From Algimonas arctica (lineage in GTDB: Bacteria; Pseudomonadota; Alphaproteobacteria; Caulobacterales; Maricaulaceae), in assembly GCF_014652695.1 (NCBI RefSeq), contig NZ_BMZH01000008.1, positions 1-64,000 on the forward strand: a DNA stretch of 64,000 nucleotides. The letters run 5' to 3'. The notes under the pieces were generated by a model. That model was not told where the DNA came from, searched no databases, and saw only the letters and a program-made list of their open reading frames with translations. The translations under genes and the position numbers were made by a program. Positions 54,637-60,367 of the stretch are shown here, piece by piece; position 1 is the first letter of the stretch; the number at the start of each line of letters is the position of its first letter.

Positions 54637-55653
54637 TTAGAAACGGTAACTCACCCGCAACGCGTCCTGACAGAACAGGTCCAACTCGACGAGGCAAACA
54701 CGTTCGATCGCGTCCACGATCTCATCCAGTGACGCGCGTCGACCATTGGCGACCACCATGGCGTGCTCCAGCGCCCCAATATAAGTCTCATAACGACCTT
54801 GGGACTGTTCTTGTAGCAAGGCATTATCGGTAATGGCCTTCGTCGCGCCGGAAATGAACAGTGTGATCGCGGCAAAGTCGACCCAATGTGTTGGCAAGTC
54901 GTGCGCTGGATCAAAAATTTTGATGCCCAACGATATAAAAGCCAGCGTGACGGCTGAGAAATACATCACGTCTTGCAGAGAGGTGACGCTGCGCATTTTG
55001 CCGCGCAAAGACGCGACCTCACTACTGGCAAAATTGATCTGATAGCGGACGCGCAATTCTTCGAACGCTTCTCGCGCTTGAGCCGCCATCGTCGGGTCCG
55101 CGTCGCCTAACTTTTCATGGTCTGGCGTATCCAGTGCTTTGTCCGGACTAAACCGTTCCAACACGGCCATACCAGCGTTCAGATCATTCTCTAAGCGCGA
55201 TAAATGCCGTGACGTGAATTCTGTCACAGCCGTTTGAAGCCCCGCCTTATCCCGCACATTATCGCCAAGATGGAAGCTCTGAAATTTCAAACTCCGGATC
55301 CGCTCACACGCGAACCGATTGAGCAACCAGACTTGCTTTTGCCGTGTCACAATGATCATCGCCTGCATCGCAATCCCAAGGATCGCCAAGACCGCCGCGC
55401 CGAGCGTGAGGGATGTCGTCCACCGGGTTGCGTCCAAAACGAGCGCATCTGAAATCGTATAAATCGCGCTGATCGCGATCAACAAGATCGCGAACCGGCC
55501 GACGCGGTGATATATCCGTTTGGCGCGCACCGCCTTCGCCTCATGCTGGTGAAAGGCCTCATCAAGCAGCGAATTTTCGAGCAATGGGCCAATATCCGCA
55601 AAGCGCGCCTGCGTGGCGTCACTGGGGAACATATCTCGATTGGCGATATTCAT
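54637..55653 (-). CDS. Four-TM membrane protein, SLATT/DUF4231-like
   Basis: The 338-residue product has TM segments near residues 53-71, 80-102, 229-246 and 257-275, arranged as two TM pairs, each followed by a helical stretch: WLLNRFACERIRSLKF after the first, QGRYETYIGALEHAM after the second. The pair-plus-charged-helix pattern resembles SLATT/DUF4231 effector-type proteins, but the match is by eye only and unproven. GGAG seven bases before ATG 55653 fixes the start. It is divergent from the protease gene, sharing a 130-bp promoter region. Confidence 0.6.
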   Translation of the reverse strand: MNIANRDMFPSDATQARFADIGPLLENSLLDEAFHQHEAKAVRAKRIYHRVGRFAILLIAISAIYTISDALVLDATRWTTSLTLGAAVLAILGIAMQAMIIVTRQKQVWLLNRFACERIRSLKFQSFHLGDNVRDKAGLQTAVTEFTSRHLSRLENDLNAGMAVLERFSPDKALDTPDHEKLGDADPTMAAQAREAFEELRVRYQINFASSEVASLRGKMRSVTSLQDVMYFSAVTLAFISLGIKIFDPAHDLPTHWVDFAAITLFISGATKAITDNALLQEQSQGRYETYIGALEHAMVVANGRRASLDEIVDAIERVCLVELDLFCQDALRVSYRF

Positions 55654-55783: not shown

Positions 55784-57901
55784 ATGATTCAGATCTTTTT
55801 TCGGACCAAACTCAGCGCGTTCCTCGCGATCCCGGTCGCGCTCTCCGCCTGCACGACTGTGTCGAACCCTGCAGAATTAGCCGCACACTACGACCCCAAC
55901 TCAAGCTCAGAGGCGACACAAACAATGGCCGTGACGCCAGCGATGGTATCGGACCATCGTTTGGTCGATCTACCGCTCGTCATGCTCGACAAGATTGAAC
56001 AGAAGACGGCCTTTGCGGTCGATCCCAATCCTTTTTCGCCTTTAACCCCAGATGAAATCGCCGCAGAAGTGGCCGAGCAACAGCGGATCAGCCTTGAAAT
56101 AGATCAAAAAATAGCGGCGCGTGAAGCGGCAGAAGCCGCAGGTCTGTGTGAGGGTGCGCGGGAAGATATGCCGCTAATTTGCCACTATATATCGACGCCC
56201 GCCTCAATGAACGCCATCACGATCCCTCGGTTTGCAGCCCCCTTTCAAGTGCAATTTTTGATGAATGAACAAGGCGCGCCGACCGATTTATTACTCGCGA
56301 AGTTTCCAAATCTGCAGGAATGGGAAGCGCGCCATGTCTGCGGCGGGTCACTCATCGCAGCTGGCTGGGCCCTGACCGCAGCACATTGTTTTGTCGCGCC
56401 GAATGCAGATCGAAGCGGGTTTAGCGTTCCAACTTTCGCCTACTCAATGCGCTTGGACGTCGAAAACATTGCCACAACACAGTCCAAAACTTTAAAGGTT
56501 GCCGACATTATCATTCACCCGAGTTACGACATTAAAACCAATTTGAATGATCTCGCTTTGGTCAAATTCGACACTGACGATTTGGCGTCACAGGGTAGAA
56601 TATCGTGGTTCGAAGGAACGGGCATTTCGAAAGACAACCGTCTTTATGATGTCACGCTCACGCCGCAAGGGATCGCAATCGAAGACATTAATTCACAGAA
56701 ACTGTTGCTGGACCCCAAAACACGCAGACTGTCTCAGAACAATTTCGCGGCGGTTGATCGTCCCGAACAAAGGCCGCGATACATCGCAGAGCACCAGACT
56801 ACTGGCAAAATTTACGTTACGGACATGACCACAGGTGTCCGGACGGAAATTGGTCGGAATGCCATGGAGTTTTCTAAAGAAGGTGTCAGCTCAGACGGAA
56901 CGCGGGTCATTTTGATTGGCAATAAAGGGCGCGGCGAAGTCTGGAGTGTTCCGCAAAAACGCCGCCTCGCCATCTTCGACGTCCTTCCCGTCTTTTACCC
57001 GCGTGATGCAATCCACTTTTCTAGGGACGGGAAAAAATTCCACCTTTGGTCTCGAAATGGTGAAAGCCAAATTCGCGAAACAGACTCTGGAAAACTCCTA
57101 AAAACGATCAATCATAGTCTGCCCGTCTATGATGCCAAACAGGGTCCAGAGCGACTGATCATTATTGAGGGTGAGTTAGGCAGTGTGGAACTTTTGGACA
57201 TCGACACTGAGACCGTGCCGTTCAGAGCCTTTCATGGCGGTTACATCGTCAAAACTGACTTTAATGAGGACAGTCTGCTGACGTGGACAGATGATGGTCG
57301 CGTCCGGCTCTTTGATCTGAAAACCGGCGAACAAACCTTGCACTATATCCATACCGCCGAAGTCCTCGATCGGACCACCTTTGCCGCGGTGCCTAACGAC
57401 CCGGCCCGCATTCAGACGGTTCGTTTGGGTATCGCCAACCCTGATCCTGATCTTGAGGAATATTTGTCCGCTTATGGTTGGGGCAAAACCCATTTTGAGA
57501 GAACGAATGTTGCCTCTGCCCTGTTGCGGAAATTATCCCTCACCGCGATTAGTTGGGACGCGTGCAATGAGCTGCGTGACAAAAGAAACGCGACGAACGC
57601 CGCAAGAACGGGCCGGACAATTCGACCATCACAGACAGACCCAAGCGCATTTTGCGCCCTTGGATCGGGCCGCAAAACCTGTCGCGGTGATAGCGGCGGC
57701 CCGATCCTGTCTGGAACAGATTTAATCGGTGTGGTTAGCCGAGGGTCCGGTCTCTGTTGGTCCGACGACGCGCCAACAACTTTCGCGTCAGTCCCGAAGG
57801 CGACAGACTGGATTAAAGACGTCGTCTGCAATGTCACGCCGAATGACGGTCAAGCGACCTACCTGCCCGCGCTTTGCGCCGCGACAGACCCCATGAGCTA
57901 G
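55784..57901 (+). CDS. Trypsin-like lipoprotein with inserted beta-propeller domain
   Basis: The 705-residue product has a lipobox (ALSAC), a 150-residue N-terminal region, and a peptidase S1 domain split by an insertion. Catalytic His201 is in LTAAHCF, Asp256 in NDLALVKF and Ser637 in CRGDSGGP; the Cys186-Cys202 disulfide of the family is kept. In chymotrypsin Asp and Ser are 93 residues apart, here 381: residues about 283-545 form four or more WD-like strands (KIYVTDMTTGV, VRLFDLKTGEQ) before the trypsin GWG motif resumes at 565. The residue aligning with specificity position 189 is Lys631, not Asp. Upstream AGGGG supports ATG 55784. Substrate is unknown; the lipid anchor implies the periplasm. 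Confidence 0.85.
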   Translation: MIQIFFRTKLSAFLAIPVALSACTTVSNPAELAAHYDPNSSSEATQTMAVTPAMVSDHRLVDLPLVMLDKIEQKTAFAVDPNPFSPLTPDEIAAEVAEQQRISLEIDQKIAAREAAEAAGLCEGAREDMPLICHYISTPASMNAITIPRFAAPFQVQFLMNEQGAPTDLLLAKFPNLQEWEARHVCGGSLIAAGWALTAAHCFVAPNADRSGFSVPTFAYSMRLDVENIATTQSKTLKVADIIIHPSYDIKTNLNDLALVKFDTDDLASQGRISWFEGTGISKDNRLYDVTLTPQGIAIEDINSQKLLLDPKTRRLSQNNFAAVDRPEQRPRYIAEHQTTGKIYVTDMTTGVRTEIGRNAMEFSKEGVSSDGTRVILIGNKGRGEVWSVPQKRRLAIFDVLPVFYPRDAIHFSRDGKKFHLWSRNGESQIRETDSGKLLKTINHSLPVYDAKQGPERLIIIEGELGSVELLDIDTETVPFRAFHGGYIVKTDFNEDSLLTWTDDGRVRLFDLKTGEQTLHYIHTAEVLDRTTFAAVPNDPARIQTVRLGIANPDPDLEEYLSAYGWGKTHFERTNVASALLRKLSLTAISWDACNELRDKRNATNAARTGRTIRPSQTDPSAFCALGSGRKTCRGDSGGPILSGTDLIGVVSRGSGLCWSDDAPTTFASVPKATDWIKDVVCNVTPNDGQATYLPALCAATDPMS

Positions 57902-57908
57902 GCTCAGC

Positions 57909-58268
57909 CTATTCGTTGGTGCCACCTTGGATAATCACGCCTGAGCCGCCGCCTTCGACACAGTCGCCATTGTCATCCAGCACCTCACAGGCGCAGCTGC
58001 CATCAGGCGCAATTACGGCACAAACTGAGGTGTCGCCTTGAATAATAACACCGGATCCGCCGCCTTCGACGCAGTCACCATTCGCATCAGTTTTTTTGCA
58101 AGCACACGTATCATCCGGGCCGGGCACAGCGCATTCCATCTCCATTGTCTTCGTATTCATGTCGACGGCTTCCGTCACGGCCTTCGGTTCGGCGTCATCG
58201 ACGTTGTCTGCAGGTACACAGGCGGATAAAGCGAAGGCGGCAAGTGTGCCGAGAAGAATATGTTTCAT
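57909..58268 (-). CDS. Small lipoprotein of two 37-residue four-cysteine repeats
   Basis: The 119-residue product has a lipobox (LSAC at 14-17), an acidic linker, and two repeats (46-82 and 83-119) that match at 26 of 37 positions. Each repeat has Cys at relative positions 1, 10, 12 and 21 and ends in GDCVEGGGSGVIIQG. No family was recognised; the repeats could be disulfide-bonded or metal-binding. GGGAG precedes the ATG. It faces the trypsin-like gene tail-to-tail, 7 bp away, on the strand of the TIR gene behind it. Confidence 0.75.
   Translation of the reverse strand: MKHILLGTLAAFALSACVPADNVDDAEPKAVTEAVDMNTKTMEMECAVPGPDDTCACKKTDANGDCVEGGGSGVIIQGDTSVCAVIAPDGSCACEVLDDNGDCVEGGGSGVIIQGGTNE
57931..58152. 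repeat. Two tandem 111-bp coding repeats
   Basis: Copies begin at 57931 and 58042, with exact 111-bp periodicity, encoding the two 37-residue repeats of the small lipoprotein. Protein identity between copies is about 70%, so this is an old duplication. Confidence 0.75.
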
Positions 58269-58295: not shown

Positions 58296-60239
58296 CTAGT
58301 CGCCCAATCCCAAACGCACAAGCAGCGCGTTAAAATCATCGCGATCACGCAGGGGCCTTAAAGCCGGGTCGATCAAGGTGAGCGAAAGGCCTGTATCCTC
58401 AAGCCTCTCCGCTTTTAGCAATGTTTCCATAGCGGCGTCTACGTCCCCCATTTGAGCAAGGATTTGCGCCTGTTGATAGGCGGCAGCATCTCCAAATCGG
58501 TCCATCAGCGCCGTATAATAGCGCGCTGAGCCAACATTATCTTCGAGCCGCGCCGACCCAATCGCCTGACACGTATATTTTTCCATCAAGTTGGCTTCGT
58601 CCTGACAGGCGTCGAGGCCGCCACCGGCGTCACCGGAATAGATTTTCGCCAGACCGAGCCAGGCCCGCACCGTTAAACGGCTCGGATCCGACGCCAGAAC
58701 ATTCTGATAAAGTGTGATGGCGCGTTCGAATTGCCCGGCTGAATAATAGGCATAAGCCACCGTCTCCATCGCATTGGGATTGAGCGGATCGCGCGCCACC
58801 CCGCGCTGCGCCATACTGATCGCGTCCTCGGATCGACCGACACCGGCGAGATAGATCGCATAGCGGTTGATGTCTTTGACGAGCGTGAGCCCGATCCTCT
58901 CCGCTGTTTCCAAAATGGGTTTGGCCGCTTTGAAATCGGCGCGCCCTGAAATCAAAACAAAGCCGTACGTCATATGCGTACTCGCCACATCTGGCGCGAC
59001 CTCAACGCCTAATCGCGCGCTTTTTATGGCTTGCTCAATTAGACGCAATGATGCCGCCTTGTCCGGGCTCGTGGCCCCCTTATGGAGCAATATTTCGGCC
59101 AAGGCTGCGTGGGCGAGTCCGAATTGCGGGTCGAGTTCAACCGCCCGTCGGAACCGTTGCGTGGCAATGTCAATATTTTCAGGCGTCGCCGCACGGTAAA
59201 GGAGTTCATTGGCGCGCATATATTCGTCATACGCTTCGGGGTTTTCCGTTAAGCCGCCGAGCGGTTCCGAGGTCGAGTTCGTCATTATCTTGACAACATT
59301 TTGGATGATAACGTCCCGCACCACCGAAATTCGGTCCGCTAAATAGGGATAGGTTTCTATCCATTGCACAACACCCTTGCGACCATTGACCAAGCTCACC
59401 ACAAATTGTTGCCGCCCCTGCAATATTTCCAGACGGCCTTCCAAAATATGATCAACGCTCAGTGCTTTGGCGATCCGCGTCGGATCGGTACTTTCACGCG
59501 TCGCCTCTTGCGATGATGAGCGCGCGATGACCTCTAGCAAAGGGTTAATCGACAACCCGTCCCGGACGGCGGAAGCAAGACCGTCCGCAACATAGTCGAG
59601 AGACGGCTCACCCGCGCGGTTGAGAAACGGCAGGACGGCAATATTGCGACCGAGAGATCGTCCAGCCTCTTGGAACGTCCGCACGGTCAAGACCGTTCCA
59701 ACGACAGCCACGGCGCCGCCTGCCAGCATGAGCGTGCGGCGTGACATCCGGGGTCTTGAAGACACGGTCCCGCCAAAGCGGTTGGCGGGGTCCAGCGGCT
59801 CATATTCGCGGTCGTGCAGCTTGGCCAACCCCCGCATGAGTTCATCCTGCACGTCCGGTCGATTATACCATTTGCGCATATCAATGACTTGGAGTTGGCG
59901 GAAACCGAGCGGCGGCATAGTGCCATCCAAGGTGAGCGGGATCAGCCGTTCGCGCTCTCGACCACTCGTCGCTTCGTCCCGTACCCAATGCGATCCAACC
60001 GCCTGACGCGACCACAGCACAACGACGGCTTTGGCGGATTCGAGTGCTGCTTCCGTTTGGGACAGGAACTCCGTTCCGCCCTCAAGCATTCCGTCCCACC
60101 AAACATGATATCCTGCCGCTTCAATCGCGTCGATAATGGGTAGAGCTTGAGGTTGATCGGCGCGAGAATAGCTAAAAAATACCGTCGGTTTCACGACGGC
60201 CTCCTCACCTTGTTCTGTCTCTGGTTTACGAGCCGCCAT
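58296..60239 (-). CDS. TIR domain - TM - TolB-like - TPR protein
   Basis: The 647-residue product has an N-terminal TIR_2 domain (about 17-145): VFFSYSRAD, WWDGMLEGG, VVVLWSRQAV, and HWVRDEA whose Glu89 aligns with the catalytic Glu of TIR NADases. A basic RRTLM stretch and one TM (about 170-186) follow, then a TolB-like/FlgO-type domain (NIAVLPFLNRAG, DHILEGRLEI) and five or more TPRs. The RR before the TM predicts a cytoplasmic TIR and periplasmic TPRs. AAGGATATC before ATG 60239 fixes the start; an ATG 35 codons upstream is possible. It is upstream of the four-cysteine lipoprotein on the same strand. Confidence 0.85.
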   Translation of the reverse strand: MAARKPETEQGEEAVVKPTVFFSYSRADQPQALPIIDAIEAAGYHVWWDGMLEGGTEFLSQTEAALESAKAVVVLWSRQAVGSHWVRDEATSGRERERLIPLTLDGTMPPLGFRQLQVIDMRKWYNRPDVQDELMRGLAKLHDREYEPLDPANRFGGTVSSRPRMSRRTLMLAGGAVAVVGTVLTVRTFQEAGRSLGRNIAVLPFLNRAGEPSLDYVADGLASAVRDGLSINPLLEVIARSSSQEATRESTDPTRIAKALSVDHILEGRLEILQGRQQFVVSLVNGRKGVVQWIETYPYLADRISVVRDVIIQNVVKIMTNSTSEPLGGLTENPEAYDEYMRANELLYRAATPENIDIATQRFRRAVELDPQFGLAHAALAEILLHKGATSPDKAASLRLIEQAIKSARLGVEVAPDVASTHMTYGFVLISGRADFKAAKPILETAERIGLTLVKDINRYAIYLAGVGRSEDAISMAQRGVARDPLNPNAMETVAYAYYSAGQFERAITLYQNVLASDPSRLTVRAWLGLAKIYSGDAGGGLDACQDEANLMEKYTCQAIGSARLEDNVGSARYYTALMDRFGDAAAYQQAQILAQMGDVDAAMETLLKAERLEDTGLSLTLIDPALRPLRDRDDFNALLVRLGLGD

Positions 60240-60367
60240 GATATCCTTGCTTATCACCTTTAAAACAGCCCTTGGGTCTGCGCGCAACATAAACCGAGCG
60301 ATCAAGGCGTTACATTTGGATACACTCGATTGCTTGTTTTGCACGGTCCAGCGCGCGATCTAAGTTT

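Follow-up and report, generated by a model that had tools for sequence, protein, structure and literature searches.

TIR domains have been coupled to SLATT proteins in bacterial conflict modules in which a TIR gene lies beside a gene for a 2TM SLATT protein, and SLATT has been described as an ADP-ribose-regulated membrane effector; in the accessible parts of the two reports, both are predictions (PMC9503650, PMC7159879). An occasional zincin-like metallopeptidase is mentioned together with TIR-SLATT modules in the same part of PMC9503650. In Thoeris, according to the available part of PMC11204291, the TIR protein makes an NAD+-derived signal, which activates a SLOG partner or a membrane effector (SIR2-SLOG, TM-macro). 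Exchangeable trypsin-like or caspase-family proteases that activate their partners by cleavage are described for the Hachiman/AVAST nuclease-protease pairs in the part of PMC12799240 at hand, which reports partner-activating proteases from several immune systems. Here we analysed a stretch of 64,000 nucleotides of Algimonas arctica (contig NZ_BMZH01000008.1; the whole stretch is called the window), in which an S1 protease with an inserted propeller is encoded next to a small acidic lipoprotein, a TIR protein and a SLATT-like protein. The set of protease, acidic lipoprotein and TIR protein, often with SLATT, gives the impression of an alarm or immune system across the envelope that is so far undescribed, and in the mainly open-access literature, as far as its texts were accessible, no description of this gene set or of a propeller inside an S1 protease was found.

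As in the TIR-SLATT modules, a SLATT gene lies beside the TIR gene in 8 of 15 loci that combine TIR and S1 genes (see below), including the window, where the SLATT scores are under the cut-offs. Unlike the modules in the accessible parts of PMC9503650 and PMC7159879, the TIR protein here also contains a hydrophobic segment and TPR repeats, and its constant partners are an acidic lipoprotein and an exported protease of the S1 or CHAT type. Some of the modules contain a SLOG-like domain fused to SLATT, which resembles Thoeris as portrayed in the available part of PMC11204291, from which they differ by the addition of an exported protease and a lipoprotein. Among the module neighbours that were scanned, no SIR2 or macro match was found that would indicate a ThsA-type effector, and the NCBIfam Thoeris type III model gave a weak partial match. 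In contrast to the nuclease partners in the Hachiman/AVAST pairs (PMC12799240, part at hand), the neighbour of the protease here is a TIR protein, and the protease itself is exported.

The protease gene (55784..57901, forward strand; ATG at 55784, end of the stop codon at 57901) encodes 705 amino acids with a lipoprotein-like signal (LSAC, Cys23), which was called from its motif and not by a signal-peptide program. The Pfam Trypsin profile matched the protein at 2.3e-29 in two stretches of one continuous profile. The first stretch (56330..56578, forward strand; profile positions 24-97) contains His201 and Asp256, and the second (57407..57814, forward strand; profile positions 103-220) contains the GWG motif at residues 565-567, Lys631 at position 189 and Ser637. 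Because the stretches map to 24-97 and 103-220, the approximately 276 residues that part them (residues 266-541; 56579..57406, forward strand) are an insertion between nearly adjacent profile positions. The initial annotation had reported an intact His201/Asp256/Ser637 triad, a retained GWG motif, an Asp-Ser spacing of 381 and a lysine at the position equivalent to 189, all of which were confirmed, the triad by alignment and Lys631 by alignments to trypsins. The window-type protease shares the triad, GWG, GDSGGP and conserved cysteines with ordinary S1A trypsins (PF00089), and the catalytic His-Asp-Ser order, which marks S1A membership, is kept by every one of the eight full-length proteins with a propeller. 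It differs from these trypsins in its propeller in the inter-barrel linker, in Lys189, in an additional upstream cysteine pair and in that no IVGG N-terminus was recognised. The cysteine pair is common to the propeller proteins and to the f4 and G096 propeller-less ones; none was seen in the propeller-less L023b, G390 and G117. A dead protease or pseudogene is not favoured, given the triad in all eight full-length propeller proteins and the purifying selection in one pair (L023/L025). Five trypsin-family genes were detected in the genome of the window at E up to 1e-5.

Relatives of the protease were sought by a protein search against 149 relatives in the order, a genome-contig scan and a profile search of 398 genomes of the order. 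The genome-contig scan yielded five loci, three of which lie in records named Hellea, Hyphomonas and Marinicaulis. Full-length propeller proteases were found in the window, G014, G065, G116, L023 (Hyphomonas sp. BRH_c22), L025 (identical to G368), G198 and G211, and further propeller pieces of G065 at contig ends (L019 and L168). The architecture is not a product of chance: eight full-length proteins share it, and with L023 and L025 near-identical, they represent seven separate locus types. Between fixed cut points, the eight propeller proteins span 294-545 residues, nine proteins without a propeller span 22-32, and G096a, which also has none, spans 49; the insertion site is therefore the linker between the two barrels. 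Seven of nine propeller-type N-termini appeared lipoprotein-like by eye, with a plain signal-like start in G014 and a hydrophobic anchor in G116. A single origin of the propeller is one possibility; an 18-row tree, which has long branches and little support, requires two changes. From this tree, G065b (truncated), G096b (no usable GWG) and the fragment G065c were left out, and loci at hand served as outgroups. A second S1-like gene follows the propeller-less protease with Lys189 in G096 (L020:7518-8627). It encodes Asn at the expected catalytic Asp (ANIALV) as well as GDSGAP, and its product may be inactive. Within a class sample, matches at E up to 1e-20 occurred in 1 of 385 genomes, which was that of the window itself. 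At most two candidates per genome were scored in this sample and in the 398-genome search, and at most three in the TIR profile search described below, so that the counts from these searches are lower bounds.

That a propeller lies inside the S1 fold, as the initial annotation had also claimed, was upheld by Foldseek matches to WD40 proteins, whereas the window protein's own model and sequence signal are weak. The insert matched the Pfam WDR36 propeller family at 5.9e-4, far under the curated cut-off. The window copy of the propeller is the shortest; a 41-residue period is clear in L023/L025 and the best lag of the window protein was 61, and a home-made repeat profile recognised just two clear units in it. 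The AlphaFold model of the window protein, built on a six-row alignment, reached an overall pLDDT of 50.6 and a pTM of 0.40, with low confidence in the S1 halves and a pLDDT by ten-residue block of 52-88 for residues 341-520 and 34-55 for about 271-340. Four-stranded units were visible at approximately 275-309, 333-368, 374-412, 418-453 and 458-493, followed by three strands at 497-522, and it is from the strands of this model that we count about six units. In Foldseek, the best match of the insert to WD40 proteins had an E-value of 8.4e-14 over 250 columns, with low TM-scores (best listed target TM 0.56).

The model of L025 was better (pLDDT 61.8, pTM 0.45) and resembled seven-bladed WD40 structures (7bie, target TM 0.70, 343 columns), with a pLDDT below 50 at insert residues 333-408. 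It has both barrels, at a pTM of just 0.45 and with S1 blocks of pLDDT 59-85 (121-200) and 51-87 (601-690). Neither of the two outcomes that would have spoken against the initial annotation, a lack of WD40-type matches or S1 halves outside one domain, was observed, the second at the low confidence of these models, by which the packing of the halves into a single domain is a prediction. Strong Pfam WD40 signals were obtained for L025 (8.9e-20), L017 (1.3e-20), G116, G198 and G211, and no WD40 match by Pfam for the insert of G014. A chance or miscalled propeller was rejected on account of the strong WD40 matches of relatives at the same insertion point. Repeating four-stranded blades, the mark of WD40 membership, were seen structurally in the models of both the window protein and L025. 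By these models, the window insert is a WD40-type propeller between the S1 halves, and it is plausible that it regulates the protease or recruits substrate. In the L023/L025 pair, dN/dS was 0.30 for the propeller and 0.13 and 0.08 for the S1 parts, values that rest on 28, 3 and 3 replacement changes, respectively, in one pair and thus a small sample. The faster evolution of the propeller in this pair fits a recognition role.

Lys189 was present in all nine propeller-type C-terminal halves (eight proteins and one fragment, two of them near-identical). It also occurs in G096a, which has no propeller, and Asp takes its place in the f4 sisters G107 and G155a. By eye, two proteases from outside the order have Ser (G817) and Asp (G557) at this position. 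At position 226, likewise read by eye, the window protein has Thr, three proteins (G014, L023, L025) have Ser and the remaining five of nine have Gly, and the usual Trp215 is missing from the window protein (Arg) and from G014 (Val). The best-scoring PDB chain in the trypsin alignments, 4niv, which we take to be an engineered trypsin, also carries Lys at position 189. The preference for acidic P1 residues that the initial annotation expected from this lysine is a prediction; a D189K mutant of trypsin reportedly did not gain it. The idea that Lys189 is a partner match for the acidic lipoprotein is weakened, because sister proteases with Asp189 also accompany acidic lipoproteins.

The small acidic lipoprotein is encoded next to the protease gene on the reverse strand (57909..58268; 119 amino acids, lipobox LSAC), and its mature part contains 21 Asp+Glu versus 4 Lys+Arg. 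Two near-copies of the motif GDCVEGGGSGVIIQG occur in it, and its relatives show an acidic run and a Gly/Arg-rich tail at the end. The TIR gene follows at 58296..60257 (reverse strand; 653 amino acids, reading frame open to 60344), and its end lies 395 bases from the protease gene. It encodes a TIR_2 domain (59859..60182, reverse strand), a hydrophobic segment and a TPR part. The TIR_2 domain is the sole TIR_2 match of the genome at E up to 1e-5 and retains the WxxxE motif, which is kept in 10 of 10 aligned proteins. The hydrophobic segment of the window protein is weak (residues 174-192, score 1.68), and that of the TIR proteins of L060, L062, L150 and L152 is under the chosen threshold; because of such cases, the topology of the TIR protein is a prediction only. 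The middle of the protein is presumably TolB-like, and a search of solved structures returned no relative of this part. CadC-like one-component receptors consist of an N-terminal output domain, one membrane segment and a C-terminal TolB-like and helical-repeat part. The module TIR protein may resemble them in layout, with TIR in place of the DNA-binding domain.

The SLATT-like membrane protein (54637..55653, reverse strand; 338 amino acids with hydrophobic segments) scored 26.1 bits with Pfam SLATT_3 (1.2e-5) against a cut-off of 26.3, and its other family scores were also under the curated cut-offs. No relative of SLATT, and no useful one of SLOG-SLATT, was obtained in the search of solved structures. 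The same four genes occur with other flanks in G014, which belongs to the same genus: the ortholog of the left neighbour lies approximately 38 kb from the module there, and the right neighbour was not found in that genome. Comparison of the window reading frames beyond 45 kb with L016 matched one histidine-kinase-like pair, module genes aside. Judged by eye, the genes that flank the module in the window resemble housekeeping genes and not a defence island. PADLOC reported nothing for the protease, the SLATT-like protein or the lipoprotein, and partial TIR and caspase matches only. A further TIR-TPR gene of G014 has neither S1 nor lipoprotein in its vicinity (L140; G014:C1, about 97 kb).

To count the module within the order, we used profiles for TIR, the TPR part, SLATT and S1, and scored an S1 gene when it lay within 3.5 kb of the TIR gene; as the profiles were built from module members, these members match by construction. 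TIR and S1 genes met this distance, with or without a propeller in the protease, at 15 distinct loci, 14 of them in the 398 genomes of the order (the window, L016, L017, L018, L020, L021, L023, L025 (= L059), L057, L058, L060, L062, L150, L151 and L152). They span five families of the order and are not independent, since five come from one genus (g22). The S1 and TIR genes are convergent in 12 of the 15, co-directional in L020 and L058 and divergent in L062. An acidic lipoprotein was found near the TIR gene in 15/15 loci with S1 versus 1/28 without (L138), a contrast that is partly tuned because the scan was written after examples had been seen. SLATT is near TIR in the window, L016, L017 and L058, and SLOG-SLATT in L021, L060, L151 and L152, which gives 8/15; in the other 7/15, SLATT is missing from the examined stretch. 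The SLOG label was assigned from motifs and is our assumption, and databases back just the SLATT/DUF4231 part of these proteins, under curated cut-offs.

The neighbours of TIR genes were inspected for 31 of 78 match rows, namely the 20 best-scoring rows and 11 from further down, and S1 was nearby in 14/20 of the former and 0/11 of the latter; the remaining TIR genes in the census were reached via SLATT (15 of 28 SLATT match rows). The top rows without S1 comprise a short contig with SLOG-SLATT (L137), SLOG-SLATT at a contig edge (L138), a TIR gene split over two overlapping frames (L139, in G302), a locus that begins at a contig edge (L141) and two with no S1 in the stretch (L140 and L142). 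No TIR gene adjoins L019 or L168, the contig-end propeller pieces of G065. Beside its propeller protease, L025 encodes a protein with a caspase domain and another trypsin, which carries DUF4384 (L025:1948-5580). At L092, L093, L094 and L103-L106, other TIR proteins adjoin SLATT without protease or acidic lipoprotein, and an adjoining reading frame of L103 looks formylglycine-enzyme-type by eye. In genus g20 (L095-L101), full-length SLATT homologs lie approximately 4-5 kb from a gene for a trypsin-like lipoprotein; no TIR match was found near them, and they were left out of the module count.

Outside the order, a phylum sample of 115 genomes contained two full-length strong TIR matches. G557, of the same class and another order, encodes SLOG-SLATT, TIR, acidic lipoprotein and S1, and G817, of another class, S1, acidic lipoprotein and TIR. 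On a plasmid of Novosphingobium sp. RL4, TIR, SLOG-SLATT and a small acidic lipoprotein are accompanied by a CHAT lipoprotein (Pfam CHAT 1.3e-42) in the place of S1. The lipoproteins of G557, G817 and this plasmid were identified with a looser scan than that used for the 15 loci. Across loci, the genes stay together with some variation in gene order. Modules of this kind that have S1 sisters lacking a propeller, or in one case a CHAT protease, suggest that the propeller can be dispensed with.

From this pattern we infer the function of the module, the specificity of the protease and the order of activation. Our preferred reading, held tentatively and with somewhat less than even confidence, is that of an envelope-spanning, protease-gated TIR-SLATT alarm system in which the propeller is a recognition or control module. 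By motif, both the protease and the small acidic lipoprotein have signals of the export or lipoprotein type. The TIR protein is predicted to traverse the inner membrane such that its TPR part reaches into the periplasm, where protease and lipoprotein would gate it. A disturbance of the envelope might cause the protease to cleave or release the lipoprotein or the outer part of the receptor. The TIR domain would then cleave NAD+, yielding an ADP-ribose-type signal or NAD+ depletion, and its product could open the SLATT or SLOG-SLATT protein, so that the cell is stopped. The propeller in the inter-barrel linker may serve recognition or docking and in this way control the protease. The broader proposal, that exchangeable exported proteases (S1, S1 with WD40 propeller, CHAT) and an acidic lipoprotein gate a transmembrane TIR receptor which opens SLATT effectors through a signal made from NAD+, that the propeller gives the protease a fast-evolving surface for recognition, and that this is a new kind of immune or alarm system acting across the inner membrane, is possible and a little more doubtful still. 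Several observations speak against this best explanation: SLATT is missing in 7 of 15 loci, L019 and L168 are without TIR, the TIR gene of L139 is split and has no S1 near it, the hydrophobic segment of the TIR protein is weak, PADLOC detected TIR only partially, the flanks are housekeeping-like and five loci come from g22.

The same housekeeping neighbours would suit a role in envelope quality control or stress signalling, in which the periplasm is monitored and TIR tunes NAD+ or metabolism without killing, so that the module would not serve immunity. The export of protease and lipoproteins is in line with this, as are the searches of phage records, which gave no match to the TIR protein at 1e-10, and of plasmid records, which gave no match to the protease at 1e-10. 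Such a role is harder to reconcile with the patchy distribution (the protease is present in 2 of 18 genus genomes, several of them incomplete), the SLATT partner, the exchange of the protease, including for CHAT, and the caspase-domain neighbour in L025, and we regard it as rather unlikely. The protease could also be the output, with TIR or TPR regulating an exported enzyme that attacks proteins of phages, predators or competitors outside the inner membrane. Its constant position beside this TIR subfamily and a fast-evolving propeller that could bind foreign targets would agree with this; however, the membrane would separate the TIR domain from the protease, and 8 of 15 loci have a SLATT or SLOG-SLATT effector, which makes this option improbable.

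Finally, the protease may be an ordinary secreted peptidase, next to which TIR, lipoprotein and SLATT persist as inherited synteny without joint function. Propeller pieces without a TIR neighbour in G065 (L019/L168) and the convergent orientation in 12 of 15 loci, as expected from shared ancestry, are compatible with this. It is largely refuted by the occurrence of the same partners in five families and outside the order, in other arrangements, with other flanks and with a CHAT replacement, and we consider it very improbable.

With the protease-gated alarm system as the preferred reading, the meaning of the protease probably moves from that of an odd enzyme to that of a part of a TIR-SLATT module that spans the envelope and whose exported protease is exchangeable. 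To our knowledge, bacterial TIR systems sense from the cytoplasm, and protease-gated surface immunity is represented by the Toll pathway. If the reading is true, TIR together with an exported protease and a lipoprotein would be a bacterial counterpart of such immunity, and with the module one could test how events at the envelope are converted into NAD+ signalling. The propeller would clearly exemplify, in a natural enzyme of the chymotrypsin fold, how a regulatory domain can be built in between the barrels.
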